Shown here: in pieces, positions 2,079 to 24,323 of the stretch
Position numbering within the stretch: position 1 is the stretch's first letter
Layout of the letters: each line of letters opens with the position of its first letter
Virus record (IMG/VR): IMGVR_UViG_3300030430_002981
Span: 1-30,640 of that record
Origin: a virus
Direction: 5' to 3' (one strand)
DNA: 30,640 nt
The notes under the pieces: generated by a model
Seen by the model: only the letters and a program-made list of their open reading frames with translations
Told to the model about the DNA's origin: nothing
Database searches by the model: none
Program-made: the position numbers and the translations under genes

Positions 2079-2524
2079 CAAGCGGTTTTAACATGGGATG
2101 GTATAGGACTGTCAAGTCGTTTTGATGTCTTGATCCAGTAAATGAAAGTTTCGAAGTCTTCTACCAGGTCGAATATCAGATCGGGTGCTACTTCTTTCAA
2201 ACCATGTTCTGCCAGTTTCATCACGCTGTTTGCTCGATACAGATAACACTTATTACCTTCAGACTTTTGGACCTCGACCAACATCCAGACACGGGCGTTC
2301 GCATGACGAGTTGCAAAAGATACTTGATGGGGGCTGATATTTACTTTGTTACCCGTGCAAACTTTGAGTTCAATCAGATGAAGGTTTTTGTGACCGTCCA
2401 TCAACAGTATGTCAGGAACCCCGGGCGTTGAGCTGTTTTCTATCCGGGTGACGGTTGGGCACTCATAACTTGTGTCAATCCTCTTTTTGAGACGCTTCCA
2501 GAAGTTCGACTCCGTTTGCTTCAT
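2078..2524 (-). CDS. PD-(D/E)XK nuclease, VRR-NUC-like
   Basis: A likely small DNA endonuclease of the restriction-endonuclease fold. In the long frame (start 2542) the core is E35, then STPGVPDILLM with P43-D44, then LIELK with E58 and K60, followed by SPHQ with Q73; this order is typical of VRR-NUC and Holliday-junction-resolvase-like phage nucleases. Two starts are possible: ATG at 2542 (154 aa) or ATG at 2524 (148 aa). I prefer the second because it reduces the overlap with the terminase gene, but neither has a strong Shine-Dalgarno sequence. Its place directly after the small terminase subunit suggests a job in packaging, replication-intermediate resolution or host DNA breakdown. Substrate is unknown. 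Confidence 0.7.
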   Translation of the reverse strand: MKQTESNFWKRLKKRIDTSYECPTVTRIENSSTPGVPDILLMDGHKNLHLIELKVCTGNKVNISPHQVSFATRHANARVWMLVEVQKSEGNKCYLYRANSVMKLAEHGLKEVAPDLIFDLVEDFETFIYWIKTSKRLDSPIPSHVKTA

Positions 2525-3014
2525 GTTCGATAACCTTTTCACCGAGTTGACGTTTCAAATCATTCAGAGCTTGTTGGACTTCTTCTTTTGACATTTGATC
2601 GATACTACCGTGTCGAATCTCACTTCGGTTGACGTACAATCCCGCAGCTTGACCTCTCGCTTTTTCAGCCGCCGTCGCCGCCGCGAAGTTTCCTGCGGCT
2701 ATCGATTGGTCTCGAATCTTGCCAAGGTCAGCCAGGTGTTGACCAAAATTAACTGCATATTTTTCGTTAAGCTCGGCCCTTCGTTCTCGCACGGCTTTGC
2801 AGATATGCGGGCTTTTTTTGGGGTTGAGCATTTCATAGGCTCTTGTGTGGGCACCAGACTTTGAAAAGCCTGCCTCGATTGCCAGGTTTTGAAGTGTTTC
2901 AGTTCCTTCGCGAGTGCAATACAGTTCTACGAACTTTGCCTGTTTGCCGGTAAGTCGTGTGTTCTCAGATATCGGGGGTCTTCCCCGTGTTTCTGTTTTG
3001 ATAGCTTCTGCCAT
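2475..3014 (-). CDS. terS: Terminase small subunit (Terminase_2-like)
   Basis: The likely role is recognition of phage DNA and regulation of the large terminase subunit in genome packaging. Residues 22-75 (LTGKQAKFVELYCTREG..., IEAGFSKSGAHTRAYEMLN, then VRERRAELNEKYAV) carry the N-terminal helix-turn-helix typical of Terminase_2/XtmA proteins. The remainder is helical, as expected for the oligomerisation region; 179 aa is a normal length. A GRPP segment near residues 11-14 is AT-hook-like. The large subunit is not in this window. The start is the ATG at 3014; a promoter at 3023-3051 would place the transcript start almost at this ATG. Confidence 0.82.
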   Translation of the reverse strand: MAEAIKTETRGRPPISENTRLTGKQAKFVELYCTREGTETLQNLAIEAGFSKSGAHTRAYEMLNPKKSPHICKAVRERRAELNEKYAVNFGQHLADLGKIRDQSIAAGNFAAATAAEKARGQAAGLYVNRSEIRHGSIDQMSKEEVQQALNDLKRQLGEKVIEHEANGVELLEASQKED

Positions 3015-3051: not shown

Positions 3052-3127
3052 CTTTTCAGAACAAATAATTTTTCAACAAAATTTATTTTTTTGGCCCCTA
3101 TATATGGTTTTTGGGGTATAAGCGAGC

Positions 3128-3168
3128 GGGTTACACCATTATTGGGTGGTGTAACCCTGGTGTAACCC
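3128..3168. repeat. Three exact copies of an 11-bp repeat (TGGTGTAACCC)
   Basis: TGGTGTAACCC occurs at 3147-3157 and 3158-3168 in direct tandem. Its exact reverse complement GGGTTACACCA is at 3128-3138. A partial fourth copy, GGTTACAC, is at 3194-3201. The inverted pair can form a hairpin with a loop of about 8 nt. The pattern resembles iterons or multimeric operator sites. Confidence 0.85.
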
Positions 3169-3200
3169 TTGAAACGCCCATTTTTAAAGGGAAGGTTACA

Positions 3201-3218
3201 CTATCGACACTATCGACA
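3201..3218. repeat. Tandem 9-bp repeat (CTATCGACA x2)
   Basis: CTATCGACA is repeated directly at 3201-3209 and 3210-3218, immediately after the partial 11-mer copy and before an A/T-only tract. It is probably part of the same control element. Confidence 0.8.
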
Positions 3219-3300
3219 CCATTTTGAAAAAATATTTTTTTACAAAAAACTTTTTTCTCCAGAAAAGTGTAATAGGTAAGGCGAATTAAGGTAAAAACGC

Positions 3301-3974: not shown

Positions 3975-4226
3975 GTGAATAAAAAGAAACTGGTAGAGCT
4001 TGCAGATGAAGTTTTGTTGGATGTCGATTACGAATTTCAGGACAAAGCGCGAGAATACTTTGAAAAAAGATTATGTGAGCGTCTAAGTTGGACATTTAAC
4101 GCTGCGGGACATCATATATACGGCAGCAAATCCAGCACAGACTATGACACGAACAAAAAATGTTACGAGTCTGTCAAACCCGTGTTGGATGACTGTCTGG
4201 ATAAAATCTTAGGGGATAAGCAATGA
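3975..4226 (+). CDS. Hypothetical 83-aa protein, GTG start
   Basis: The start is a GTG at 3975 placed 6 nt after GAGGAG (3963-3968), the best ribosome site in this region. The protein is charged and mostly helical, with three Cys spread through its second half (near residues 33, 63 and 73) that do not form an obvious zinc site. It overlaps the 372-aa gene by 4 bp (ATGA), so the two are probably co-translated. Function is unknown. Confidence 0.6.
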   Translation: MNKKKLVELADEVLLDVDYEFQDKAREYFEKRLCERLSWTFNAAGHHIYGSKSSTDYDTNKKCYESVKPVLDDCLDKILGDKQ

Positions 4227-5341
4227 GCGAGATGGAACTTGGTGAGCTGAAACAAGAAGTTATCCACGCTGTACAAAAACCGTATGTCCGTTTGCATGGT
4301 CTGGATCGATATCATAATCCCGCCCCTTGGAAAGCATCAATGAAAAAGGGTGTAAAAGAAAACACGCAAAGACTACAAAGCAGTGTCGTTTACGAGATTA
4401 CTAACGAAATTCTTGAGTATCTTGAGCCGTCTGTGGTGAAAGGCAACCAACACCAACTCTACAAAGCAATGCTCAATGGTAAACCAAGGCACTACAACCA
4501 GTGGATTGAGTTTGACTTGGGACACTTGTACGAGGGCGAAGGGCTACAAGCATTCCATGTGTACAGCACTCAATTCGTGGGCAGGGTAGAGAATCGTCGT
4601 GTAGGAACACAGTGGGATGCGGCTCTGGTCGGTCACCGTAAAGACGTGGGATTTGGTGATGTTTATTTGATAAACCATTATTACGAGACGTTCCAAAAGA
4701 AAAAGGTCGGGTTTCACCCATACAGTTCAAAAACTTGTGTTTGGAGTCTTAGCGGAAGATATATCGATGAATCCTCTACCGGTATGACGGAAGAAGAAAA
4801 GCGTGAGCGAGAAAACGCCACGCTTGCGTTGTGGTTACTCGGGGACAATTACCGAAAGTTTAGTAACGATATGCAACCCTTGATAGATAGATGGTCAGGG
4901 GGTCTCAACGATCTGATAATGGATTTACAAGAAAACAAAGTAAGAGAGTTAGTTGCTGACAAAACCAATATAAACCGTTACGCCCGGTTAATAGCCATTT
5001 TAAGCTTGATGAATTATGAGTGGTTCGTTGAAGAACCCAAGGATCTCGGAATACAGGGACAAAAATTTAAACAGGAGGTCGTTCCTGGAGACGCGCACCA
5101 TCGTATCGTTTTGAAGTTGCCCAAAACAAAAGGGCGAGTCATTGTTCCAAAAATGCCAAGAAGATCAGAACCTTACGGTGTCAAAAGGCACGAAGTTTCT
5201 GGGCACGAAAGAAAATATCGGGATAGCCACGGGAACGTGTACAAAACGATTTATATCAAGCCGCATTGGCGCGGTGACGAGAGACTAGGAATCATCACAA
5301 AAGATTATGTCGTTGAGAGGGACGACAAAAAAGACGATTAA
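4223..5341 (+). CDS. Hypothetical 372-aa protein, largest of the rightward operon
   Basis: It has no signal peptide or membrane helix. The N-terminal half is mixed alpha/beta with many aromatic residues (LNGKPRHYNQWIEFDLGHLY near residues 88-107; FGDVYLINHYYETF near 144-157). The C-terminal segment near residues 323-360 is basic and ordered as SGHERKYRD...YIKPHWRGDERLGI, a pattern I have seen at the ends of uncharacterised phage and plasmid proteins but cannot name. Being by far the largest product of an operon of small early genes, it may be its main effector. I cannot identify catalytic residues. Confidence 0.6.
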   Translation: MSEMELGELKQEVIHAVQKPYVRLHGLDRYHNPAPWKASMKKGVKENTQRLQSSVVYEITNEILEYLEPSVVKGNQHQLYKAMLNGKPRHYNQWIEFDLGHLYEGEGLQAFHVYSTQFVGRVENRRVGTQWDAALVGHRKDVGFGDVYLINHYYETFQKKKVGFHPYSSKTCVWSLSGRYIDESSTGMTEEEKRERENATLALWLLGDNYRKFSNDMQPLIDRWSGGLNDLIMDLQENKVRELVADKTNINRYARLIAILSLMNYEWFVEEPKDLGIQGQKFKQEVVPGDAHHRIVLKLPKTKGRVIVPKMPRRSEPYGVKRHEVSGHERKYRDSHGNVYKTIYIKPHWRGDERLGIITKDYVVERDDKKDD

Positions 5342-6893: not shown

Positions 6894-7064
6894 CTACCTA
6901 TGGGAAGAAAGCGATTCCGCTTCATTGATGCGGTCTTGCTTCCATTCCTTTAGGATCTTTGCAAGCTGCTTTGATATTGGCCGGTCTTCATGCTTCGCAA
7001 GTAGTTTGATGTCCTGATAAACATCTCGCGGCACTGCAACTGACTTGTATTTTTCTGTGTCCAT
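6894..7064 (-). CDS. Ribbon-helix-helix DNA-binding protein (56 aa)
   Basis: The sequence fits an Arc/MetJ/CopG-type ribbon-helix-helix domain: a basic beta strand (YKSVAVPRDV), helix A (YQDIKLLAKHED), a turn (RPISK) and helix B (QLAKILKEWKQ). Such proteins bind operators as dimers through the strand. The ATG at 7064 is chosen over an earlier one inside the polymerase gene because the RHH domain begins there and because a near-consensus promoter (7072-7100) points directly at it, with a predicted transcript start at about 7065, so its mRNA may be leaderless. The promoter spacer carries TATCCCGGATA, suggesting autoregulation. Similar sequences occur at four other promoters in the window. Confidence 0.7.
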   Translation of the reverse strand: MDTEKYKSVAVPRDVYQDIKLLAKHEDRPISKQLAKILKEWKQDRINEAESLSSHR

Positions 7065-7071
7065 ACGGGAA

Positions 7072-9229: not shown

Positions 9230-10752
9230 AACGCATAACTCCTGTTGTAATTTTCGGGTTCCACGATGAAAAGGTTTTGCTTCGAGCGTGTGACAGCAAC
9301 ATAAAACACCCGATGGATGGAATCAGAATCCTGCTCCATCGACTGCTCTGCCGCTACCGTCAAGTCCGTATACAGGACTACGTTCTCTGCTTCACCACCC
9401 TTTGCGCCGTGGATCGTGCTCAGTCTTATACGAGGTGGTTGGGTGAGGTCTTCGCCTCTTCGCACCAGTGCGTTGATGTAAGCCACATCGACACCCGGTA
9501 TCTTATCCAATGCCTCATTCCACGCCATGTCTTGAGTCGCCAGCAAACCATGATGGTCTCGTAGCTCTTCAAAAGTAAACGTGTCGTCTTCTTCCCCAAT
9601 TATTTTCTTGTGTCCTCTAGCTATCCGGACACCGTTGCCTGACATGTATTGATACAGTGTTTTTGTAAGATCAAAGGTCACGGGCTTGCCCTGTTGTAAC
9701 AATCGCCATGCTTCTAATGCTTGCCGTACCTTCAATCGCACACTATGTGTTGCATCTGGATATTGAAAAAAACGACCCTGTTGTTTCATAAAATACTGTG
9801 CGCTGTTCAGATGAAACTTCGCTTGAGCCAAAAACAACCACGTGCCCTGACTAAGATCTAGTTCTTCAAATCCAGTGATCCGTTTGGCAACCCCCTCTTC
9901 TCGTCGCGGCAGATACTTCTTTGGGAACCGTCGCTTGATTCTTGCACTAATACGCTCTGCGATCTCATGGATCTTCCGAGGCACACGGTAGCTTTGCTCC
10001 AGTACCTCACTGCCACCGGGCAGGTTGATGAAATGGTCTACATCTGCCCCACTCCATTTATAAATAGCCTGGTCATCGTCACCCGCGCAATACATGCGGT
10101 CGGATTTCTTTTCAATGGCGTGGGCAATGTCCCACTGTAAGGGTGAAAGATCTTGTGCTTCATCAAGCATGGAAAGCTCAAAGTGAGGGCAAGTATCCTG
10201 TGCAGACTGAGCAAACAATTCCAACATGTCTGTGTAGTCGTAAAGTTGATGTTCCTTTTTGTATTGTTTCAAGGACCGTGCAACGTAGTCCACTTCTACC
10301 CACTTGTATTCAATCTCACTGAAGTTGTACTCATGCCGCAGCAATGTCTTTTTCAAGCGCGACAAGGTGATCAACCGCAGTATCGGTGATTCTTTTCGCA
10401 GACTATTACTGAGATCCTCTTCGACCTCATGCAGTCTGGTCTCGCCAGACACCAAGCTAATACCAATTTTTTTTTCAACTTCCCGGTAATGTTCTGCTGT
10501 CATAAGTTGATCACTCTTCAAACCGGTTAGGAAGAACGCCAATGAGTGTATTGTACGAAAAAACGGCAGATCAGCTTTGGGGTCCAACCCAAACCGCTCT
10601 GAGGCTCTCTCTTTTGCCTCTGAGGCGGCTTTTCGTGTAAACGCAAAGAATGCTATCTTGTGCGGTGCTACGCCTTCAGACAGTGCCTTATCAACCAGAT
10701 CGAGTAATGTGGTAGTTTTTCCGCAGCCAGGTGGACCAAAGATGCGCTGCAT
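9226..10752 (-). CDS. SF1 (UvrD/Rep-like) DNA helicase
   Basis: An ATP-dependent DNA helicase for replication or repair. The motifs are in order: Walker A GPPGCGKTT (6-14), motif Ia AFTRKAA (37-43), Ib TIHSLAF (67-73), Walker B LDEAQD (196-201), motif III GDDDQAIYKWSGAD (224-237), motif IV QSYRVP (253-258), motif V STIHGAKGGEAENVVL (445-460) and motif VI FYVAVTRSKQNL (483-494). At 508 aa it is shorter than UvrD and lacks most of the 1B/2B insertions. It starts on a TAATG junction with the primase stop, which couples their translation. In the absence of a DnaB-type helicase here, it may be the fork helicase. Confidence 0.93.
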   Translation of the reverse strand: MQRIFGPPGCGKTTTLLDLVDKALSEGVAPHKIAFFAFTRKAASEAKERASERFGLDPKADLPFFRTIHSLAFFLTGLKSDQLMTAEHYREVEKKIGISLVSGETRLHEVEEDLSNSLRKESPILRLITLSRLKKTLLRHEYNFSEIEYKWVEVDYVARSLKQYKKEHQLYDYTDMLELFAQSAQDTCPHFELSMLDEAQDLSPLQWDIAHAIEKKSDRMYCAGDDDQAIYKWSGADVDHFINLPGGSEVLEQSYRVPRKIHEIAERISARIKRRFPKKYLPRREEGVAKRITGFEELDLSQGTWLFLAQAKFHLNSAQYFMKQQGRFFQYPDATHSVRLKVRQALEAWRLLQQGKPVTFDLTKTLYQYMSGNGVRIARGHKKIIGEEDDTFTFEELRDHHGLLATQDMAWNEALDKIPGVDVAYINALVRRGEDLTQPPRIRLSTIHGAKGGEAENVVLYTDLTVAAEQSMEQDSDSIHRVFYVAVTRSKQNLFIVEPENYNRSYAL

Positions 10753-12281
10753 TAGAACGGAATCTCTTGGTCACTGGTAAACTGTGGGGTGGTCAATTGA
10801 GATTTATCCGTATCAAAAGATGGAATACGCCATAGTCTGATTTGCTTACCCTGTATTTTCAATAAAGACGAATGACCGTTCAAGTCTCGCAGTCGTTGTG
10901 CGATCTGGTGTGTTTTGAAGTGTTTGAAGTTCGCTTTGATCAAATGAGATTCCAGATCTTTGAGTCTGAAATAGGTTTCTCCACGATCTTCATCTGTCCA
11001 CGGACGCTTCAACAGTATTTGTTCTCGATCCTCTGCGGCTTGGTGCCCAGTGCAAAAATCTTCGAGATGGTCATTGAACTGTCCGTTTATTGAAACATCG
11101 TCAGACACCTCGATAATACTGCCCTCTGTCTCTGACATTTCGTTTAACAACCCGTTGATTCGAGTCTCCCACATGTCTTTTTTCATCGTGCGGGGCAAGA
11201 AGTTCAACTGATCCACACACGCTTTCTGAAACGCACCTTGATTCAATAGATCATCCGTCTGCATTTCGAGAGGCTGACCCATCACATCCAAGAACCAAAC
11301 TGGCGGTACGCTGTTATATTTACGCAGATTGGCTATCTGCACCCCTGTCGTGACGCCCTCTATGCCAAACTTACGTGTCATACAAAGTTCACGGTTGCAG
11401 ACGCTGTTTATAGGCGCATCACTACACTTATAAGCGTAGTCTTTTCTCTCCAACTGTTTGGCTACTGTATTGACTTCGCCCAACGGCAATGGCGGGTGGA
11501 TAAACTTCATGTTGTGTTCGAGGATTGCCGACTCCCAGCCTTCGGGGTCAGATTTGCGTAGATATACGCCCAGATTGAACAGGCCATTGTTCCTAGCCCC
11601 TTCTGGTATCCCGTCCTTACAAAGCATCTGTAGGCAGGGTGGACCGTCTTTCAGTGGCAGATCCGGGTCATCTTCTACCTTGAGTGCCAATACCTGTTCA
11701 TGAGTCTGTACGTTCTGATCGTATAGATCAAAAAACTCTTCGATGGTTGCTGCAGTCCCGTCTGGCTTGAATGCGTAACGTAGACCGTTCTCGTGGTCAA
11801 AGTACGGCGTATTCAAAAAGTTGCCTACATCACCACGCTCCAAATGCAGAACAATTTGTTTTGGAAATATTTCGCAAGAACCATATCCAAGCGATATGGC
11901 AAGTCGTTTCAAGGTCTCCTGCATGTCCTTGGCGGGTATGAACTCCGTAGTAAACAAAAATACGTGAGCACCACCCGATTTACTACGACATACGACCAGT
12001 GGCAGTTTAGCCTTTTGCAGTCGTTCTATGAGTTCTTGATGGTTGAAATTGTATTCATCGACATCGATACAGCCCCATTTGCACTGATTGTCTTCGTTGA
12101 TAGGGATAATGCCGATAGATTGTTGACCAGAGAGATGAGCTTCCCATGTCTCCGTGGTCCGTGATTCTTTGACGACCGTAGCTTTTCCGGTTGCTTTGCC
12201 TTTCGTGTCGCGACCATTGATCTTGTAGGTCCCGTAAGCTGCCTTGAGGCCGTCGAATATGTTTGAAAATTTATCTATCAT
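10752..12281 (-). CDS. Archaeo-eukaryotic-type primase (TOTE-like), with C-terminal PriCT/Cys region
   Basis: The likely role is primer synthesis for phage replication. The catalytic AEP core has GCIDVDEY (acidic D73 and D75) and SKSGGAHVFLF (S100, H106), followed by EIFPKQ and GNFLNTPYF. This order matches primases of TOTE-type conflict systems and many marine phage primases. Residues 225-270 (GARNNGLFNLGVYLRKSDPEGW) resemble a PriCT helical domain. A Cys set (C216, C221, C286, C295, C300; YKCSDAPINSVCNRELC) could hold zinc or an iron-sulfur cluster. The C-terminal 200 aa may be helicase-loading or regulatory. It is followed directly by the SF1 helicase. Confidence 0.85.
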   Translation of the reverse strand: MIDKFSNIFDGLKAAYGTYKINGRDTKGKATGKATVVKESRTTETWEAHLSGQQSIGIIPINEDNQCKWGCIDVDEYNFNHQELIERLQKAKLPLVVCRSKSGGAHVFLFTTEFIPAKDMQETLKRLAISLGYGSCEIFPKQIVLHLERGDVGNFLNTPYFDHENGLRYAFKPDGTAATIEEFFDLYDQNVQTHEQVLALKVEDDPDLPLKDGPPCLQMLCKDGIPEGARNNGLFNLGVYLRKSDPEGWESAILEHNMKFIHPPLPLGEVNTVAKQLERKDYAYKCSDAPINSVCNRELCMTRKFGIEGVTTGVQIANLRKYNSVPPVWFLDVMGQPLEMQTDDLLNQGAFQKACVDQLNFLPRTMKKDMWETRINGLLNEMSETEGSIIEVSDDVSINGQFNDHLEDFCTGHQAAEDREQILLKRPWTDEDRGETYFRLKDLESHLIKANFKHFKTHQIAQRLRDLNGHSSLLKIQGKQIRLWRIPSFDTDKSQLTTPQFTSDQEIPF

Positions 12282-13804: not shown

Positions 13805-15247
13805 ATGTACACATTCAAAACAGAACCTTACGACCATCAAAAGATTGCGCTTGAAAAGTCTTGGCAGAAGAGTGTTTTCGCGCTTTTCATGGAGATGGGA
13901 ACTGGTAAGACCAAGGTGACAATCGACACGATGGGTATGCTTTTTCAACAAGCCGAGATAGAAGCTGCGCTCATAATCGCGCCTAAAGGTGTGTACGCAA
14001 ACTGGCACTCGAAAGAGATACCGCAACACATGTCAGACGATGTAAAGGTTGACTCGCTGCTATGGGAGCCGAAAACGACACAGAAGTTTCAGAAAAGACT
14101 GATCCAAGTAGCGCGGGGGTCGGGCGATGCACTGCGGATCCTTATCATGAACGTAGAGGCACTATCGACAAAGCGTGGCACCCAGGTCGCCCAAGATTTT
14201 GTAAAGATGAACCCGAACTGTTTTGTGGTGGTGGATGAAAGCACCACGATCAAGAATCGCCAAGCCCAACGAACCAAGAACATTATTGCACTGGGCAAAG
14301 CCGCAAAATACAAAAGAATACTGACGGGCAGTCCAGTTACCAAGAATCCAATGGACCTTTACTCACAATGTGCCTTTCTGAACACCCGTATGCTTGGTTT
14401 TGATAGCTACTATGCTTTTCAAGGTCGGTACGCCGTGGTACAGCAACGCCGGTTCGGGGCCAGAAGTTTTCAACAGATCACCGGGTACAGGAACCTCGAA
14501 GAGTTGAATTGCAAGCTGGAGAAGCACAGTCACCGGGTGCTAAAAGAAGATTGTCTCGATCTACCAGACAAGATTTACATGCAAAGACAAGTTGCTTTGA
14601 CTGAGGAGCAAACCAAAGCGTACAAACAGATGCAGGAGTTTGCACTGGCAATGCTTGACCAGGGTGAGTTAGCAACGACACAGAGCGTGTTGACACAGAT
14701 CATGCGACTGCAAGAGATTTGCTGTGGTCATTTACGAACCGATGATGGAGAGATACAACCGCTTGCAAGCAACCGTATGACAGAAATGTTAGAGGTGATA
14801 GGGGAGATGATTGGCAAAGTCATCATCTGGGCGAGTTATGTGTACGACATTGAGCAGATACAACAGACGCTGGCAGAGAAGTTTGGTGAAGATTCGGTAG
14901 TCACTTTTTATGGTGCCACGCCGCAAGAGGAGCGGGACCGGATTGTAGAGCAGTTTCAAGATAAAGAAAGCCCAGTGCGTTTCTTCGTGGCAAACCCAAA
15001 GACCGGTGGCTACGGATTGACTTTAACTGCTGCCACTAACGTATTGTATTACAACAATTCTTATGACTTGGAGATCAGGTTGCAGTCAGAAGACCGGGCG
15101 CACAGGATTGGGCAGGACCACCACGTTCTGTACGTGGATCTTGTCAGCCCCAAGACCGTGGATGAAAAGATAATCAAAGCGTTGAAAGGAAAGATTGACA
15201 TAGCACAACAGGTGCTAGGGGAAGAAGCTAGGGCTTGGTTGGTTTAG
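13805..15247 (+). CDS. SNF2-type SF2 helicase / ATPase
   Basis: An ATP-driven DNA translocase (480 aa). It has a Q-motif-like YDHQ (9-12), Walker A MGTGKT (31-36), motif Ia IIAPKGVYANW (57-67), a DEST Walker B (144-147), motif III LTGSPV (173-178) and C-terminal SNF2 motifs including GGYGLTLTAA and the motif VI pattern RLQSEDRAHRIGQ. Small SNF2 helicases of this type are common in phage replication modules. The ATG at 13805 starts the domain; an earlier in-frame ATG at 13727 would add a tail overlapping the opposing promoter. It is the only rightward gene between two leftward operons and its stop overlaps the end of the zincin gene by 20 bp. Confidence 0.9.
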   Translation: MYTFKTEPYDHQKIALEKSWQKSVFALFMEMGTGKTKVTIDTMGMLFQQAEIEAALIIAPKGVYANWHSKEIPQHMSDDVKVDSLLWEPKTTQKFQKRLIQVARGSGDALRILIMNVEALSTKRGTQVAQDFVKMNPNCFVVVDESTTIKNRQAQRTKNIIALGKAAKYKRILTGSPVTKNPMDLYSQCAFLNTRMLGFDSYYAFQGRYAVVQQRRFGARSFQQITGYRNLEELNCKLEKHSHRVLKEDCLDLPDKIYMQRQVALTEEQTKAYKQMQEFALAMLDQGELATTQSVLTQIMRLQEICCGHLRTDDGEIQPLASNRMTEMLEVIGEMIGKVIIWASYVYDIEQIQQTLAEKFGEDSVVTFYGATPQEERDRIVEQFQDKESPVRFFVANPKTGGYGLTLTAATNVLYYNNSYDLEIRLQSEDRAHRIGQDHHVLYVDLVSPKTVDEKIIKALKGKIDIAQQVLGEEARAWLV

Positions 15248-16403
15248 GCACTGCTCTTGGCGGGTAATACAGATTGCCCCTTGTTTCGCCCGTTTTGATA
15301 TCTGACGTTTCATTCAAAAATATTCTCAAAGCCGCACTGGCTTTTTCAACTACATCGAGTTTTTCAACGTCCTCCGGGTCCATTTGTTGTTTGACCAGAA
15401 AATCTACAGGGTCTCCACCGCGCTCATTGATTGAAACCAACTCTTCGAACTTTGCTATTTCTTCTTCGTTCATGCCTCGTCCGGTTTGGTTTTTTGCTCT
15501 AATCGAATCAATATTTTTCAAAATGGTGTCTATGCCGCTTTGTCCGTCTTCGCCTTTTTTGGTCAAATCTCTGTAGCGTTTTTCATAATCATCAAGCGGA
15601 TATAAAAATTTATGATTATCCACCACCATCTCAGCAATACCTTTTTGTAAATCCGGGTCCAATTTACTGTAGTTCTCAGAGACAATGAAGTCGGTGATGC
15701 GAGGATGTTGCGATCCAGCGTGGAATAATTCGTGAAACAAAGTCCCGCCTTGTCTGCCCGCATCGTATCCGCTCAGACTTTCCGGTAGCCTAGACAAAAG
15801 AATAGAACGGGATGTTGGACCGGTCAGAAACCCAGGCCCAACCTCGCCCTCCTCCATATCTACAACATTAAATTTTTTCGCAGGAGCAGCGGATTCGTAG
15901 AATTCTTCACCAATCAAACTTGGCATAGCAATATCTGAGTATGGTGGCCCGTATTGCAAAGTAGTACCGCGTCTAGCACTTTGAAGAAAGTTGTCGCCAA
16001 TAACCTCTTTTGCTCTTTGTCTTGCTCTCGAAAGATCTGGTATAAAACTTCCCAAAATAGCACCACCGTCTGGATTCGTTATCGTGGGATAGGTCGCCTT
16101 GATTCGTGCTCTGCCCATCGCGGTTTTTGACATTTTCTTTCGCTTGTCTTCTAGTCCTTCAAAAGCTTCGCGGTATCGGCCCGGAACTTGGCCGAAAGTA
16201 TGATATTGAAGATCAGGAAACGACTGGCCCAAAGTGGATAGTAAAGAATAAATCCCACCCGGTTGAAATTCAGGGGGCAGACCACTCATCATTTCAAGCT
16301 CAAACTCTTGTTTGTTAAGTCGTTCCCGGGCGACTCTTTCGGCTGCTTCCTCCTTGGTTTCTGGAAAACCTTTCAGAGCAGAAATGCCCTCTCGCTCGGC
16401 CAT
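15228..16403 (-). CDS. Large virion-operon protein with HExxH zincin motif
   Basis: The protein (391 aa) carries HELFHAGSQH at residues 224-233 in the context GGTLFHELFHAG, a typical zincin helix; H224 and H228 would bind zinc and E225 act as catalytic base. H233 or E258 (GIAEMVVDNH) could be the third ligand. The rest is mostly unassigned. It is the last gene of the late leftward operon, joined to the 1256-aa gene by TAATG, so it may be an ejected or maturation protease, or an enzyme that acts on host proteins. No signal peptide is visible. The motif is seen; the function is inference. Confidence 0.65.
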   Translation of the reverse strand: MAEREGISALKGFPETKEEAAERVARERLNKQEFELEMMSGLPPEFQPGGIYSLLSTLGQSFPDLQYHTFGQVPGRYREAFEGLEDKRKKMSKTAMGRARIKATYPTITNPDGGAILGSFIPDLSRARQRAKEVIGDNFLQSARRGTTLQYGPPYSDIAMPSLIGEEFYESAAPAKKFNVVDMEEGEVGPGFLTGPTSRSILLSRLPESLSGYDAGRQGGTLFHELFHAGSQHPRITDFIVSENYSKLDPDLQKGIAEMVVDNHKFLYPLDDYEKRYRDLTKKGEDGQSGIDTILKNIDSIRAKNQTGRGMNEEEIAKFEELVSINERGGDPVDFLVKQQMDPEDVEKLDVVEKASAALRIFLNETSDIKTGETRGNLYYPPRAVPKPTKP

Positions 16404-19400
16404 TACCCTCTCGCTTGCGGCAGTGTTCCTATGCCTTGTGCTTCAATTAGCGGAGATATCGGATCATCTGGATAAAGGGCCGCGAACCGTCGTCTCGTTT
16501 GCTGGTTTGCTGGTGCAGCAGCCTGAGTTGGTAGTGCAGGGGGCAAAGGCGGCCCTATCACTTGCATGGGCGGATCTATTGGAGGTTGGGGTGCTGGTAT
16601 ACCCCGATCTCTCAGACCACCGAATCCTCTGGGCCTTGGGGTCCCAAAAGGTGTTTCTTCGAACTGACGGATTGCAGCCTGTTCTTCTGGCGACAAATCT
16701 TGTGTCATAATTTCTTCTGCCGCCCCTGTACCCAACGCACTGTTTATGAAAGCGTTGAGTCTTCGCACATTGAAGACTCGCTTTGCGACATCTTTAGTGC
16801 TTTGCCGCTCTCCGGTAATCAAACCTTTTTCCAGCAACAAAGCCATCATCTCTGGCTCTTGTATTGCTTTTTGTAATAATTTGTTTGTGTCGGTCGTTGG
16901 AATTCTATCCAGCATTTTCAAAGCCGCTTGGGAACCCCCCGAGGCCGCAATCAAAGTTGCGTTACCGGGTAATATCGCAGATAGCTTTTGACCCGCTCCG
17001 GCACCTGCTGATCTAACGATCAAATTAGTCAACACATCCATGCCCGATTCTAGCTCTTCAACAATATCGTAACCAGGGTTGGCTATTTTCTTTTGTGCGC
17101 CCTCACCCGCAGTCAAAAGTTGCTCAAGACGCACTCTTTCCATGTCACTGAACAGACCCACTTTTTTGTCAGTCAGAGTTTTGATCAAAGGCTCGTTTTT
17201 TCCACGAGTGGCAAAAAAGAAAGATCTGAATTTGCTGAAATCGGGTGGAGCACCTACCGAGGCGAGATCTGGACGGCTAGACTCGTCGGCAATCTGGAAA
17301 AAAGCGTCACGTAATTCTTCCTCGACTTGGGGGACGGTAATCTCAATTCTTTTACCGTCAACAAAAACCGGTCCCTCTTTTTCTGATCTGCGGGCCGCTG
17401 CCCGTAAACGGTTTGTCAAGTTGCGTATTTCTGCGGCAGGCTTATCGGAGTTCAAAGCCATATTGATGGCATCGTGAGGATTCTCACCCGTTAAAGCAGA
17501 AAACAAATTGTTGAAGCTTGATCTGATTTTGAATAAACCTTTTTCTTGTCTCAGTCTGGCTCTGTCCAATAACGTCTTTCTTGTTGAAGCGTTTTCTAAA
17601 TCCGCTTTCAGTTGCGGCATCAACGAGAGTGTTTCTTCGTTTTTTGTCAGGAAATTAGCTAACCCTGCTTGGTTTACCTCACCGGTTTGGTTGTTCACCA
17701 AATTCGACCCTGCAAGAGCGCGAACCACGGTGTCATAACTATCCGATAACAAGCCTAATCGTTCCGACGCAACAAGCTCCTCGGTAGGATCACCCGCCAA
17801 GCCACCGGGCGTAAGATCATTGACTAGCATCTTCACTGCGTTATCAATGTCTCGCAGTCGCAAAATTGTCTCATCATCGGTTCCACGTAAGATGTTTTGG
17901 TACAACAATTCTGGTTGAATAAAAGCCTCACCCGTGGCTCTGTCAGCCATAATCTTATTTGGGAAAGCTCTTTTGAATACATCTGCTTTTGCTTTGGTGA
18001 ATGCTCGTGCAGTATCAATGGCGGATAAAGTTTCCAAAGTGAGTTCTTCACCATTCAATTGAGCTAACTTGTCCTGGTCTCCCAAATCATCGGCAATAGC
18101 TTTTGCCATGCGGGTATAAACTCGGGCATCCGCCATTCCAGGATTCTGACCAGAGGCCGCCAATCTTGCTTGCGCGAGAAAGTAACTTCGAAGATTGTTT
18201 TGTTGCTCAAAGGTTGGGGAATCAATATCTTGGTCGCCCAACTGCTCTCTTTGTTTCACGAGCTTACTTAACTCGTACGAAATTCTCTGAGACGACGCAA
18301 GTTGATTTGCTGATAACCCTGTGGCTTCGACAGCGGTTTCTATTTCTTGCGGGGTCGAAGGTGGCATATCAACAAAGTCTTGCAAAGTTTCTATTCGAGC
18401 ATCAAGCAACTTCACTTCGGCTTGTTCCCCTAACCGGACTCCAGCATCTCGGACGATTTTATCAACCACACGAGAAAACTGTTCTTTGGTCAATGTCCCT
18501 TGTAAATATTCTATTTCGTCCGCGAAATTATCTTCGCCAACTAAAACACGCTCACCTTGGACCTTTTTATACAAAGCGTTTTCTTGTTTATTAACGTCTG
18601 CAAACGCACTTTGAATGATGTCTGTTACCCTTGTGCTTGCAGCGCGTCGAGATTCTGGTGTAACACTTTTTATTTGGTTGGTTGCTCTATTTGCTTGATC
18701 GATTGCGTGAGCAAACCGGTCTTCAACTAATGACTCGAAATGCCTTTTTCTTAATATAGCGGCGGATCTCAGCGCGTTTGTCCCGCCGGTTAAACGTAAA
18801 GCCTTCAATATTTTGGCAACACCTTGCGCTTGGGCATCTAAATCATTTTGTACTTCTGTACCAAAACGCCCGTTCAACGCACGAAGACGGCCTTCCAATA
18901 GCTCGAGAGTCACACTATCTGTCAACGCACGACTGTTGGGGCTTGGTATATCTACACCAGCGAGGAGAGGCCGCTTGGTCTTGTCAACCAAATCTTCTGC
19001 ATCTTTGATAAGTTTGTCGAACTCTGGCCGTCGTAAGGCCCTGATCAAATCTTCTGGGTTTTCTCCTCTTTCGAGTAAGAAATTCACCAAGGCCATCCCC
19101 ACTCGTTTTTCGACTGCTGACTCCGAGGTTGCCTCGCCTAACAATTCTTTTTGTTCTAACGCAATTTCTTTGAAATTTTCGTAGTATGGGAGCCATTTAA
19201 AAGGATTCAAAAGAACAGATGCGAAGCCTCCCCCTATTTCAGCAGGGACTCTCACGTATGGATCACCAGGGGATATCAATTCAGCACCAGTTGCCCCTGC
19301 GGCAGCACCCGCAATCGCACCCGTCTCCGCCGCTTGAAACATTTTTGGAGATTTTTTGTAAGTATTCAAAAACTTGAACATGACGGGATCAGCAACTTGC

Positions 19401-20173
19401 AGATATTTCATGTCTTTTGGCATCGCACCCGCCTGATAAACAGGGTTTTCTCGCAGATTGAAACTGCGAAGCCGTATCGAGTCTCCTAGTTTTTTGAGGA
19501 AACCCGATTCTGCGGTCAGTGCTTTTTCACCAATTTTCATAAAAGCACGAGGAGCCGCCAACATAGTCAGCCCTTCACCTAAAACCTTGCCGCCTTCCAG
19601 CAAAGCGCGAGTTTGATCTTCGAGGATAGGCTCGTCGGAAAAAAACTGGTCCTCCGCAAACATGCCGATACCGGCCCCAATGAGCAGGCCCCCACCCCCT
19701 GCAATAGCTATTCCGGGCAAACCAAAAAGACTCCCGTATTTAGCTCCCGCTATCATCCCAGCCGTAGCAGGAGCACCAATGGTCAAGCCCCTAGCTACGC
19801 CCTCGGCCGCCGCTACATCCGCAGCGAGTTCTCGGTTTTTGATAAAAGCAGCAGCAAAATCAGACGGTTTAATACCTTGGTTTGCGAGATCTCGCGCTTC
19901 ATTGATTCCCAAATCCTGCACGAATATATTTAAGATTTCGTCGGTAGTAAGACCTTGACTACGCAAAGACTGTATCGGCACGTCAATTTTGGGCAGCTCG
20001 AGATATTCTTTAATTAGATCTAGGTCCGTGAGTCCTGCACCGGCCCTCAAATCAGCATAAGTTCCCGGCCCTTCGGCAGCATCGACCATGCCTTGCACCG
20101 CGTCAGATAGCCCAAACTCCCTCACTAAGGGTGCAAACTCCTCATTAAAATCGAGGCGTAGCTTTTCTGCCAT
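16403..20173 (-). CDS. Giant internal virion / ejection-like protein (1256 aa)
   Basis: The largest gene in the window. Residues 130-172 are a Gly/Ala-rich hydrophobic segment (GAPATAGMIAG..., GIAIAGGGGLLIGAGIGMF) able to enter a membrane, and a second Ala/Gly-rich patch lies near residue 290 (AAETGAIAGAAAGATGAEL). Most of the rest is predicted to be helical with many Glu, Leu, Lys and Arg, including long coiled-coil-like stretches. A disordered Pro-rich end (RPRGFGGLRDRGIPAPQPP) follows. No lysozyme or transglycosylase motif is visible. Size, membrane-active segment and position fit a podovirus internal or ejection protein. Homology is not established by eye. Confidence 0.6.
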   Translation of the reverse strand: MAEKLRLDFNEEFAPLVREFGLSDAVQGMVDAAEGPGTYADLRAGAGLTDLDLIKEYLELPKIDVPIQSLRSQGLTTDEILNIFVQDLGINEARDLANQGIKPSDFAAAFIKNRELAADVAAAEGVARGLTIGAPATAGMIAGAKYGSLFGLPGIAIAGGGGLLIGAGIGMFAEDQFFSDEPILEDQTRALLEGGKVLGEGLTMLAAPRAFMKIGEKALTAESGFLKKLGDSIRLRSFNLRENPVYQAGAMPKDMKYLQVADPVMFKFLNTYKKSPKMFQAAETGAIAGAAAGATGAELISPGDPYVRVPAEIGGGFASVLLNPFKWLPYYENFKEIALEQKELLGEATSESAVEKRVGMALVNFLLERGENPEDLIRALRRPEFDKLIKDAEDLVDKTKRPLLAGVDIPSPNSRALTDSVTLELLEGRLRALNGRFGTEVQNDLDAQAQGVAKILKALRLTGGTNALRSAAILRKRHFESLVEDRFAHAIDQANRATNQIKSVTPESRRAASTRVTDIIQSAFADVNKQENALYKKVQGERVLVGEDNFADEIEYLQGTLTKEQFSRVVDKIVRDAGVRLGEQAEVKLLDARIETLQDFVDMPPSTPQEIETAVEATGLSANQLASSQRISYELSKLVKQREQLGDQDIDSPTFEQQNNLRSYFLAQARLAASGQNPGMADARVYTRMAKAIADDLGDQDKLAQLNGEELTLETLSAIDTARAFTKAKADVFKRAFPNKIMADRATGEAFIQPELLYQNILRGTDDETILRLRDIDNAVKMLVNDLTPGGLAGDPTEELVASERLGLLSDSYDTVVRALAGSNLVNNQTGEVNQAGLANFLTKNEETLSLMPQLKADLENASTRKTLLDRARLRQEKGLFKIRSSFNNLFSALTGENPHDAINMALNSDKPAAEIRNLTNRLRAAARRSEKEGPVFVDGKRIEITVPQVEEELRDAFFQIADESSRPDLASVGAPPDFSKFRSFFFATRGKNEPLIKTLTDKKVGLFSDMERVRLEQLLTAGEGAQKKIANPGYDIVEELESGMDVLTNLIVRSAGAGAGQKLSAILPGNATLIAASGGSQAALKMLDRIPTTDTNKLLQKAIQEPEMMALLLEKGLITGERQSTKDVAKRVFNVRRLNAFINSALGTGAAEEIMTQDLSPEEQAAIRQFEETPFGTPRPRGFGGLRDRGIPAPQPPIDPPMQVIGPPLPPALPTQAAAPANQQTRRRFAALYPDDPISPLIEAQGIGTLPQARG

Positions 20174-22518
20174 TATTTTCTATCCTGCAGGAGATTTTCG
20201 AAACGTTTTTGAGATTGCGCCGCTCGACCTCCAATCACATCCGCCCCGGGTCCTTGGTCTACGACGCCCCTTGTTGCCACACCCAACGAGTCAATCAAGT
20301 TTTCAAAGCTACGCAACAGTATGGGTAGTTGGTTTTCCACCATGTTCTTGGCAATAAGAAAATCTTTATCGTCGTGAGTGCCTTTTGGATCAATTTTGTA
20401 AATTTTGTTTGCTTGTTGCTCTGCTTCTAGCAGCTTCTTATACAGAATTTGTGCCTGCTGGTAGGCCTGAGTATCTGTTGACACGGCACCTGGTCGTATC
20501 TTCGCAACTTCTGCTTGTATAACATCGACGATTGCTTTCAAACGTGCATTTCCAAGCTCTTCGTACAGTAGTTTCAATGTCTCGTCTGCAAGCGCATTCA
20601 GATGTACATCCGACTTCACGATGTCTTTTTTGGCATCATCAGGGATTGACATTGCATCCCGATAAAAGCCGGTAGGATCAACGTCCACTAATTGATCGTT
20701 GATGTACCTTAACACCCTAGCGGGGCCACTCAACCCACCGAAACTACCCTCTATGTTCAAACCTTCTGGGATAAACGTTTTTAGTTTTTCGCCTTGGGCT
20801 GCCAGACTTTCCGCCTCTGACAAAGTAGTGTTTACGGGATCTGCAACCATTTTTTGAGCGTCTTTGATGATTGTCTCATCTATATTCATCGGGAACCCAG
20901 CTTTTGCCCGTTTATCTATCGCAATAGCAAGATTCAAAGGTAGCCCCTCTGAAAGTATCTTCTGAGGACCAGTGGGTTTGTAGATGATATCTATTGAGCT
21001 TTCAACGTCTGTAGTGACCTCTGGTGACAACGTTCCAGAGCCATAAGATGTTACGTTTTTGAGTACGCCCTGCCGCATTTTGCCGGGGCTGTCCATAGCA
21101 AATTTACCCTCTTGACCAACCCCAAATACGGTCGTTTGTCCATCCGGGAAAATCCTCAGAACTTGCTGATTGCCCATACCGTCACTCAAAACTTTGTCCA
21201 CGGGCTTGTTGTTCTGCGCCGCGTCACGCTTCATGTCAAGAATGTTTTGTATGTTAGATTCTCGTACCTTCAAATCAGACCCCAAGACGGCCGTCTGACG
21301 AGCTTGGTCGCCTTTTGCAGCGATTTGTTCTAAAGCCTGGTCGCCTTTCACATCGAGTTGTGTTAACTCCTGTTCTGCTTTTGCCTCTTGGCGTTTACCT
21401 TTTCCTTCTTCTGTCAAACGAAGGCGATCCATCAAACCACCCTCTTTTATCAATAGTTCGGCGAGCGATCTATCCAGTTTGGTTTGTTCCAAAGCCATTT
21501 GACGTGTCGCGGTATCCGCAGCCGTCTGGGCATCTATCGCTGCCTTGGCTGCCATAGACCGTAACGCGCTGTCACTCTTTCTTTCTCCAGCACGAATCGC
21601 CGCCAAATCACCTAAAGCTGTCTGCCCTACAGTGCCCAGTTGCGATAAAAATGGTCTGCCCGCTATATTTTCACCTTTCGGCCCTACGCCTGCTGCAAAC
21701 TGGAAACCCGCACGGGCTAATGCAAGAGCACGGTCCTTTTCCCGGTTTTCGGCGTCAACGCCTTGGATATTTTGAAAAAAAGGGAGATATTGTTGGAATC
21801 TTTGTTCCAAAGAGGGATCTCCTGCCTCTGCCATACGAACCACAGGGCCGCCCGCCGCAAACTGCTGCACGGGCTGTTCTGGTGCTCCTGCCATCATCAA
21901 TGCGCCGACACCCTGACCCATGTCTGTTGGCGCACCACCTTCCGTAGCCATTTCGACATCTGAGGTGAGTTGTTGCATCAATTCACCAATGCCTGAGTTC
22001 ATAGCCCCTTCTTCGGTCATCATTATGGTGGGCTGCACCATTGCCAATACAGACTCTGGGGTCCGCATAGCATCTTCTTCACCAACATATTCTGCAAGTT
22101 CCGTGCGCCGTGCTGATATGGGCATCTCATTGCCCCGCAGTGCGTTGATCAGGCCCTCTGCATCTTCTGCCATGTCAATGCCGCCCATCTGCTGGGCCAG
22201 ATAGTCAAGGCCAAGCTGTTCGCCCTCTGCTTCGGCAGCCATCTCGACTTGAGCTATCGCCTGCTCTGGGTTGACTGCACCGCCTTCTTGTTTCTCGATG
22301 ACACCACGGCCTATCAATATGTCTTTTTGGGTTACTTTGCCGTCACCACTAAGGTCAGGAAACTTGTTTGCACCACCGCCTTTTTTGAACATAGGACGGT
22401 CCATCACGTCACCGCCCTGTATCTTGATACGGATGTCTGCTATGCCGTTTTCAGGCAGATCCATCTGCTGAACGTTGCGTATGATGTCTTTGATCTCGCG
22501 GGGCATACTATCCTGCAT
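20173..22518 (-). CDS. Virion-operon protein with EF-hand-like loop (781 aa)
   Basis: Near residues 40-72 it contains RPMFKKGG followed by DLSGDGKVTQKD, a perfect 12-residue calcium-loop pattern (D55, S57, D59, K61, T63, D66) then ILIGRGV. This MFKKGG/EF-loop block recurs in marine phage structural proteins. Residues 85-230 are Met/Ala/Glu-rich and low in complexity; residues 300-400 form a long helix (ALRSMAAKAAIDAQTAADTA). The C-terminal part is helical and ordered. It is joined to both neighbours by TAATG. The probable role is an internal or tail-associated structural protein. Confidence 0.6.
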   Translation of the reverse strand: MQDSMPREIKDIIRNVQQMDLPENGIADIRIKIQGGDVMDRPMFKKGGGANKFPDLSGDGKVTQKDILIGRGVIEKQEGGAVNPEQAIAQVEMAAEAEGEQLGLDYLAQQMGGIDMAEDAEGLINALRGNEMPISARRTELAEYVGEEDAMRTPESVLAMVQPTIMMTEEGAMNSGIGELMQQLTSDVEMATEGGAPTDMGQGVGALMMAGAPEQPVQQFAAGGPVVRMAEAGDPSLEQRFQQYLPFFQNIQGVDAENREKDRALALARAGFQFAAGVGPKGENIAGRPFLSQLGTVGQTALGDLAAIRAGERKSDSALRSMAAKAAIDAQTAADTATRQMALEQTKLDRSLAELLIKEGGLMDRLRLTEEGKGKRQEAKAEQELTQLDVKGDQALEQIAAKGDQARQTAVLGSDLKVRESNIQNILDMKRDAAQNNKPVDKVLSDGMGNQQVLRIFPDGQTTVFGVGQEGKFAMDSPGKMRQGVLKNVTSYGSGTLSPEVTTDVESSIDIIYKPTGPQKILSEGLPLNLAIAIDKRAKAGFPMNIDETIIKDAQKMVADPVNTTLSEAESLAAQGEKLKTFIPEGLNIEGSFGGLSGPARVLRYINDQLVDVDPTGFYRDAMSIPDDAKKDIVKSDVHLNALADETLKLLYEELGNARLKAIVDVIQAEVAKIRPGAVSTDTQAYQQAQILYKKLLEAEQQANKIYKIDPKGTHDDKDFLIAKNMVENQLPILLRSFENLIDSLGVATRGVVDQGPGADVIGGRAAQSQKRFENLLQDRK

Positions 22519-24323
22519 TAGAACGCCCTCCCGAGTGCAGCGGCACCGAGTGCCAAACCAGCTACCTGTTGCCCAAGACCTGGGTTGGGTGCATTTTGTT
22601 GCAAGATTGAGCTTTGTGATGAAGGCAGTGCCTTGGTCAAGTCACCCAAGAATCCGAGTTGTTGGAGAGGCTGTGCATACGCCGCCTGTTCAGCGGCAAA
22701 CTGTGCGTTCAACACATTTTGTGCCTGCTGTTGCTGCATTCCACCAAAGCCTAATAACTGTTGAGCGTCAGCGGCTCTTTGCTGCTGCGCCTGTTGACCA
22801 AGAGCAGCTTGTATTTGACCCATCGAAGCCAATCTACCGCCTAGCTGTCCGCCTTGGGCCGCCAATGATCCGATTCCTTGTGCGGTTTGCGCTTGTTGTC
22901 CAGCCAATGCAGCTAGTTGACTAACATCTGCTTGCCCAAGCTGACCGAACTGGAGTCCCAACTGACCGCCGGTTTGTGCTATGTTGGCTCGTTGAGCTGC
23001 CATTTGAGCTAATGCCTGCTGACCTTGCAAGCCAAGCTGACCGCCAACTTGCGCCCCACGTTGCGCCATTTCGGCGGCGGATAGACCTAACTGTGCGCCC
23101 GTTTGAGCGGCCTGTTGTCCAATCCCCGCAGCTTGCAGACCAATCGATCCTCGTAATTGTTGGGCTTGAGCAGCTTGTTGAGCTAATGCTTGAGCGTTTC
23201 TAGCAGCTTGTTCTTGTGCAGACATGCCAAGACCAGCCCCGGCTTGTGCCAGTTGCCCAGTAGTTTGCGCTTGCTGAAGCTGTCTGCCTTTACCAGCTTC
23301 GAAAGCTTGTTGTGCAGCACCTAATGCTTGACCGAACCCTTGACTCAATAAACCAGCCGTTTGCCTAGCAATTTGTTCATTGACGGCACGGTCTATTTCA
23401 CCGCGTTGGACCCCGGTTCGTGATCCGCCAAACGCCCCTGCTGCTATAGCTTGAGCGTCTGCCTGTTGTTTTTGTAGCTCACCCGTTCTCATAATCTCGC
23501 GTCGGGTCGCCTCTACCACTTGTTGTGTATAGGGGTCCATAAACTGTGCGATCCCACTAGGATCAAATTGGTCTGCGACTCCGGCCAGACCCTGACGAGC
23601 GGCCAATAAATCTCTTTGGCCCTGTGCAGCGGTTTGTAGTTGACCTTTTGTCGCCGCGCCTAATTGTCTTCCTAGAGCACGAGAGGTCCCTAACGCGCCA
23701 ATCCCAACGTCTCCAGCCAACTCTCTTGCTTGTCTTGCACCAAGGCCCAGACGGGCTTGTGCGTCTTGTGCGGCCCTTTGACCCAATACGTCTGCCGCTG
23801 CAATACCCTGCTGTGCGGCTTGAGTTTGCAACGGCACACCAGCCTGTGCTCCCGTAATGTCAGAAGCGGCGGCTGATAAGCCTCTAAGTGCTTGATCTCT
23901 AAAGGTAAAAGGCTCTGCTCTTGTCGCAGCAGCGAGGGACTGTGCATCGCGTAAAGTCTGCAACGAACCTCTTTGTACCCCCAAAGCCTCTTGTATACCT
24001 GGTAAGGCTCCGGCTGTAATCGCCTGCTGACCGGCTTGTGTGCTTGCTAGAGCACCTTGCAAAAACGGCTCGTAACCACCAATACCCGTCCTAATTAAGT
24101 CGCCTGCGTCAATTTGTTCTGCTGTAAGACCGGCGATAGCTTGAGTTGGCGGTAACACCGGTCCAAGCTCCCTACCCTCTGCATCCACAAGCGGTTGCCC
24201 AGTGGCAGGATCGATGCCTTGCATTCGGGTAATGTAATCTTGAGCCGACTCGTATAGACCTAACTTATACGCTTCGACCGGTGCAGATTCTCGTACCTCT
24301 TGTATTTGGGTTGTAGTAGCCAT
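22518..24323 (-). CDS. Ala/Gln/Gly-rich long-helix virion protein (601 aa)
   Basis: Ala, Gln and Gly make up a very large share of the sequence. From about residue 190 to 550 it repeats units such as GQLGLQ, AQLGLSAAEMAQ and QQALAQMAAQ with period near 11 to 15, ending in Met/Gln-rich runs. A conserved-looking spot, AIAAGAFGGSRTGVQRGE, lies near residue 290. Such proteins form extended helices; a fibre-like or internal channel component is plausible. The N-terminal 100 residues look like an ordered adaptor region. The same composition makes sequence-based family detection unreliable. Confidence 0.6.
   Translation of the reverse strand: MATTTQIQEVRESAPVEAYKLGLYESAQDYITRMQGIDPATGQPLVDAEGRELGPVLPPTQAIAGLTAEQIDAGDLIRTGIGGYEPFLQGALASTQAGQQAITAGALPGIQEALGVQRGSLQTLRDAQSLAAATRAEPFTFRDQALRGLSAAASDITGAQAGVPLQTQAAQQGIAAADVLGQRAAQDAQARLGLGARQARELAGDVGIGALGTSRALGRQLGAATKGQLQTAAQGQRDLLAARQGLAGVADQFDPSGIAQFMDPYTQQVVEATRREIMRTGELQKQQADAQAIAAGAFGGSRTGVQRGEIDRAVNEQIARQTAGLLSQGFGQALGAAQQAFEAGKGRQLQQAQTTGQLAQAGAGLGMSAQEQAARNAQALAQQAAQAQQLRGSIGLQAAGIGQQAAQTGAQLGLSAAEMAQRGAQVGGQLGLQGQQALAQMAAQRANIAQTGGQLGLQFGQLGQADVSQLAALAGQQAQTAQGIGSLAAQGGQLGGRLASMGQIQAALGQQAQQQRAADAQQLLGFGGMQQQQAQNVLNAQFAAEQAAYAQPLQQLGFLGDLTKALPSSQSSILQQNAPNPGLGQQVAGLALGAAALGRAF

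Follow-up and report, generated by a model that had tools for sequence, protein, structure and literature searches.

A cluster of six short repeat units, packed into 90 bp and lying upstream of a putative small terminase gene (terS), probably represents replication-origin iterons bound by the C-terminal winged helix of the phage's own primase. The comparison of related phages suggests that the reader of the array is the wing of this TOTE-type primase, with a quickly diversifying code between wing residues and bases. The key wing residue and the letters of the repeats appear to change in step, the protein and the origin evolving as a matched lock and key. Iteron origins are a known general kind; the wing of a TOTE primase as the proposed reader is new relative to the literature searched. 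In the open-access literature searched, no description was found of this array, of a TOTE primase reading an origin, or of the origin of any phage with a TOTE-type primase.

The repeat array and its flanks

The window, that is, the whole stretch of DNA analysed here, is a viral fragment of 30.6 kb from IMG/VR. Near-complete relatives are about 57.7 kb long, and the window is therefore roughly half a genome. Its replication genes encode PolA, a UvrD-like helicase, an AEP-TOTE primase and an SNF2-like helicase, and resemble those of phage DSL-LC04 and of HTVC023P-type pelagiphages (PolA approximately 54% identical). Several other genes were noted. A small RHH (CopG/Arc-like) protein is encoded directly after polA (6894-7067) and accompanies polA in the relatives examined, more weakly in the HTVC023P-type phages. 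The product of 1219-1851 matches a RusA-like PHROG and DNA polymerase processivity factor PHROGs, and is 73-80% identical even where terS is 99% identical. A 372-residue protein (4223-5341) has no Pfam or PHROG match and is patchy in close relatives, while three large ORFs of 1256, 781 and 601 residues (16403-24323) without PHROG matches perhaps encode ejection or tail proteins.

The array occupies one intergenic region between divergent operons. The features identified there are as follows.

2475-3014, minus strand: terS-like gene (Terminase_2/phrog_51, weak scores), adjoining the array
3053-3095: A/T tract on the terS side, 81% AT
3130-3136, minus strand: direct unit D4, GTGTAAC, within the 11-mer 3128-3138
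3149-3155, plus strand: inverted unit I2, GTGTAAC, within the 11-mer 3147-3157
3160-3166, plus strand: inverted unit I1, GTGTAAC, within the 11-mer 3158-3168
3178-3192: spacer core, CCCATTTTTAAAGGG-like and hairpin-like, in relatives too
3195-3201, minus strand: direct unit D3, GTGTAAC, 9 bp from D2
3204-3210, minus strand: direct unit D2, GTGTCGA, 9 bp from D1
3213-3219, minus strand: direct unit D1, GTGTCGA
3222-3258: A/T tract beside D1, 89% AT, candidate melting region

The original prediction of three exact copies of an 11-mer, two direct and one inverted, was borne out: TGGTGTAACCC is present at 3147-3157 and 3158-3168 on the plus strand and at 3128-3138 on the minus strand. The partial fourth copy that it had proposed is TAGTGTAACCT at 3193-3203 on the minus strand, with two mismatches to TGGTGTAACCC. 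No further exact copy of the 11-mer was found in the 30.6-kb record. The window has one case of an exact 11-mer occurring at least three times within 100 bp; among 200 dinucleotide-preserving shuffles there was none. The tandem CTATCGACA pair was also located (3201-3218), but it is not the separate element that had been assumed. Read on the minus strand, this pair and the 11-mers form a single family of units of approximately 9 bp with the consensus GYGKNAC. Their order is three direct units, a spacer, two inverted units and one direct unit, with A/T tracts outside. The AT-rich flanks were likewise correctly described, the window as a whole being 52% AT.

The outward promoters placed about 80 bp away on each side did not hold up: a scan for sigma-70 promoters returned two weak sites, with 1.4 expected by chance. 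Both weak sites overlap the repeats, which removes the argument that the repeats point to an origin or an activator site since they avoid the promoters. The choice left open between these two functions now falls on the side of an origin, based on the single array per genome, the A/T tracts and the co-variation with the primase presented below.

Arrays in related phages

IMG/VR was scanned for relatives of terS, PolA and the primase, yielding 46 loci with both an array and a primase. In one group (L029-L062) the arrays lie beyond 430 bp upstream of terS; they were found by scanning downstream of the primase and were recovered in members long enough to reach the array. Long GC-rich degenerate repeats (ggtccgcgatcc-like) were observed between the array and terS in this group. 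Each of five near-complete relatives (49-58 kb) contains exactly one array per genome. The cumulative GC skew of these five genomes is almost monotonic, and the skew is therefore uninformative as a test of the origin.

The architecture of the array is conserved. In the 46 arrays the first step between direct units is 9 bp and the second is 8 or 9 bp, the inverted pair comes next, and A/T tracts flank both sides in every case. The 45 bp before D1 are at least 78% AT in 46/46 (mean 84%; locus mean 51%); beyond the array, the best stretch of 45 bp likewise averages 84% AT. A hairpin-like CCC...GGG or GCCGCATAAAC core tends to persist in the spacer between D3 and I1 (3178-3192 in the window, and in relatives).

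Conservation in relatives, which the original prediction had proposed as a check, applies to the architecture and not to the letters. The cores differ among phages (GTAAC, GTTAC, GGGAC, GGTAC, GGAAC, GTCGA, GTGAC, GTCCC), and the units of an array change together from phage to phage. At positions 4-5 of the three direct units the mean difference was 0.10 within an array vs 1.08 between arrays.

A scan of GTDB placed most of the closest primases in MAG contigs, which are probably mis-binned phage. One array-like match (L419) has an ACGTAAT core and a primase with S at residue 473, which fits the residue rule given below; L413-L418 from the same scan gave no credible array. Triple repeats with a 9-bp period (ACCTTAC, CTAGGAC) were seen in Mesorhizobium and Rhodospirillaceae contigs (L446, 12338; L451, approximately 2982-3008; L459, approximately 4217). 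They lie directly downstream of an ORF beginning with a TOTE-type primase match, which is where the origin of SaPI-like elements is found.

The primase wing and the letters of the units

The primase is encoded approximately 7.5 kb from the array, with the following features.

10752-12281, minus strand: primase, with an AEP-TOTE catalytic domain, a PriCT-like region and a C-terminal winged helix; proposed to bind the array
10812-11096, minus strand: C-terminal winged-helix domain, residues 396-490, based on AlphaFold2 models and structure comparison
10863-10865, minus strand: codon of L473, which tracks the unit core in relatives
10839-10844, minus strand: codons of Q480-I481, second wing position tracking unit type

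The catalytic domain is complete and clearly of the AEP type, as judged from Pfam PF22548 (55 bits vs a cut-off of 27) and from the match to CAPP (7nqe, Z 20.8); the PriCT-like stretch scored below the Pfam cut-off. No helicase domain was found in the primase, the UvrD-like helicase being the product of a separate gene. AlphaFold2 modelled the C-terminus as a winged helix whose two wing strands span residues 470-476 and 479-487. Residues 473 and 480 are on opposite wing strands, beside the conserved basic residues 475 and 482, and both side chains would face the DNA. The top PDB match of the domain was TcpK bound to oriT (Foldseek E 0.009, Z 7.3-7.6), followed by the C-terminal domain of the SCCmec helicase Cch (5dgk, Z 7.0-7.2). 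Both matches are modest: their Z values are about 7, and the best score obtained by chance is often 7-8. The likeness therefore supports plausibility rather than family membership.

Co-variation with the unit core was scored for nine proteins, with 2187 variable columns between them, encoded in half of the genome of approximately 57 kb. Mutual information placed residue 473 of the primase at the top and residue 480 next. In a co-change test on the PolA and helicase tree, which holds only about 15 core changes, residue 473 again ranked first and residue 480 second, or third with random resolution of ties. Against a maximum-over-columns null with the same number of changes placed at random, P was 0.016-0.022; for two top columns no more than 10 residues apart in one protein it was 0.013-0.015. 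Within a clade of 16 phages with repeated switches, residue 473 was the sole perfect partition with the core among 1119 columns (Q with GGNAC, V with GTAAC, L with GTTAC). The code over all phages is Q with GGNAC, V, S or T with GTAAC, and L with GTTAC.

Closely related pairs show the same changes. The primases of L139 and L136 have four differences in 512-513 residues, including T472M and V473L; between these phages TAAC becomes TTAC in every unit, with hardly any change in the A/T tracts or outer flanks. L145 and L133 are separated by V473Q (GTT to CAG, three base changes), their units changing from GTAAC to GGGAC. The wings of L503 and L466 are identical save for V/L473, with units GTAAC vs GTTAC. 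The rule for residue 473, fixed beforehand, was applied to held-out arrays from two further scans, and was right in 13/13 unique arrays (9 TA, 4 TT; no GG-type in the set). A perfect 9/4 split has a chance of 1/715 if the arrays are independent, and their independence is only partial.

The array of the window obeys this rule in part. L473 goes with TCGA in D1 and D2, and D3, I1, I2 and D4 carry TAAC; the one-residue code is thus incomplete in the clade of the window, since residue 473 is L although four of the six units are TAAC. Unit types in this clade are separated by residues 480-481 (QI, TT, RV). Between the window and L177, which has the same unit type, residues 441-490 show 27 synonymous and 0 non-synonymous codon changes. 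In L173, overall closer to the window but of another unit type, 8 of 14 primase changes fall in 480-494, and residues common to the window and the same-type L177 and L178 but absent from L173 cluster at 480-494.

Other functions and other readers were weighed against these results. The location between divergent operons would suit regulation of both operons by the primase, or by some other protein with a wing, acting at an operator or activator site; winged helices are often regulators. This is unlikely, as the protein that tracks the units is a primase whose catalytic domain is complete, no credible promoters lie at about 80 bp from the array, and a single site per genome with conserved A/T tracts suits an origin better.

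Given that the co-variation covered nine proteins and half of the genome, and about 15 core changes, the array could instead be read by another phage or host protein, the link to the primase being a by-product of relatedness. The first rank of residue 473, the perfect partition despite repeated switches, the near-identical primases that differ at the wing and the held-out arrays make such a reader quite improbable. In the RHH protein encoded after polA, the DNA-binding strand does not vary between unit types, and no cluster of nearby genes tracks the type by its presence or absence, save the repeat region itself. The sliding-clamp-like protein (1219-1851) and ORF 677-1105 were also rejected as candidates, their identity not following unit type (L007 and L014 vs L004).

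The position upstream of the terS-like gene raised the possibility of a packaging site (pac or cosB-like) recognised by the small terminase that this neighbouring gene encodes; lambda-type cosB sites contain repeats. TerS is 98-100% identical across six unit types (L004, L005, L009, L010, L013 and the window); in L004 it is 100% and in L010 99% identical to that of the window, and the units differ. TerS therefore does not set the sequence of the array, and the site does not follow TerS in the manner of pac or cos. The units are tracked by another protein, the primase, and the array lies further from terS in the L029-L062 group, all of which renders a packaging role very unlikely. Least probable of all are RNA or single-strand hairpins (D3-I1, I2-D4) with the unit changes as compensatory base changes. 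In their favour, the window has a stronger fold than its shuffles for either strand (z -4.5 and -4.0), and two-sided changes occur in 12/31 pairs. Across the 12 types, however, pairing was seen in only 73% of cells; for helix 1 the figure is 54%, and in helix 2 the variable position is unpaired in 4/12 sequences. Pairing also leaves both the agreement of D1, D2 and D3 and the tracking of the core by the wing unexplained.

Known systems and a proposed mechanism

Origin iterons read by the primase wing have partial counterparts elsewhere. The P4 ori-crr system combines the alpha primase-helicase with short direct and inverted repeats beside A/T-rich DNA. As for P4 alpha and its cognate site (PMC6092414), a primase protein is proposed here to recognise short direct and inverted repeats near A/T-rich DNA. 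Alpha belongs to another family and combines primase and helicase in one protein, whereas the TOTE/AEP primase described here has no helicase fused to it; its predicted binding domain is a winged helix that would read through its wing. SaPI/PICI elements and SCCmec share the combination of iterons and an A/T region, and SaPI Rep and Cch read their origins by a C-terminal domain (PMC6092414, PMC7581432); Cch binds the direct repeats of the putative SCCmec origin, as does its isolated C-terminal domain (PMC7581432). There the reader is an initiator helicase with the origin just downstream of its gene, in contrast to the candidate reader here, a primase encoded far from the array. In this phage the candidate reader is thus neither a helicase nor joined to one.

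TcpK binds the tandem 9-nt boxes of the pCW3 oriT via its beta-wing (PMC6137059; structures 5vfx and 5vfy). It resembles the present system in the winged helix and the 9-nt tandem units, and ranked first among matches to the primase C-terminus in both Foldseek and VIA. It differs in being a free-standing conjugation protein acting at oriT, with 14% identity, and the available text of that source describes no concerted diversification of the boxes. In the PLE of V. cholerae, RepA and the origin iterons co-vary as a module, and diversification of the target has been proposed as a means of evading the phage nuclease Odn (PMC7145576, PMC8263062). PLE is a satellite with a RepA_N initiator and iterons of approximately 30 bp, unlike the lytic-type phage replication genes and single-residue wing changes observed here.

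The HTVC023P-type pelagiphages and DSL-LC04 (OR003939, MN698239, MN698241, MW574966) have the same replication gene set, but their primases are 29-50% identical and the units and spacing differ. HTVC027P (L093, MN698241), a cultured Pelagibacter phage, carries GTGTTACA/TGTTTCAC units in 10-bp steps near terS (14780-14875), possibly a related origin in a culturable phage. HTVC023P (L085) has a cluster of CTAGGAAA repeats upstream of terS (11672-11776); the available text of PMC9599517 describes no origin for phages of this type. In DSL-LC04 the array detector was negative, and only degenerate ACGTGAT/GCGTAAC-like repeats were seen near terS.

From the sequence evidence, the following mechanism is proposed. 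The C-terminal winged helix of the primase would physically bind the units of approximately 9 bp, mainly via its beta-wing, with residues 473 and 480-481 reading unit positions 4-5. The bound primase, as the putative initiator, would mark the origin, and the A/T tracts beside the array would melt. The UvrD-like and SNF2-like helicases and PolA of the phage would then join and replication would start; the inverted units may assist by hairpin extrusion.

More tentatively, the primase wing and the iterons might form a rapidly diversifying recognition code (at residue 473, roughly, Q reading G, V, S or T reading TA, and L reading TT) that shields origins from co-infecting relatives, satellites or origin-targeting nucleases; we regard this as possible but not favoured. 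If true, closely related phages would fall into origin compatibility types, and a switch of type would take one or two residues together with the concerted conversion of five or six units. The favoured reading itself would give a large, mostly marine phage family a sequence-defined origin with the primase as the probable reader, and origins could be called in metagenomic phages from sequence alone. It would also provide a natural library of dozens of protein-DNA pairs, with the recognised bases predictable from a single residue of the wing, informing the evolution of DNA-binding specificity and the separation of replication among related phages.
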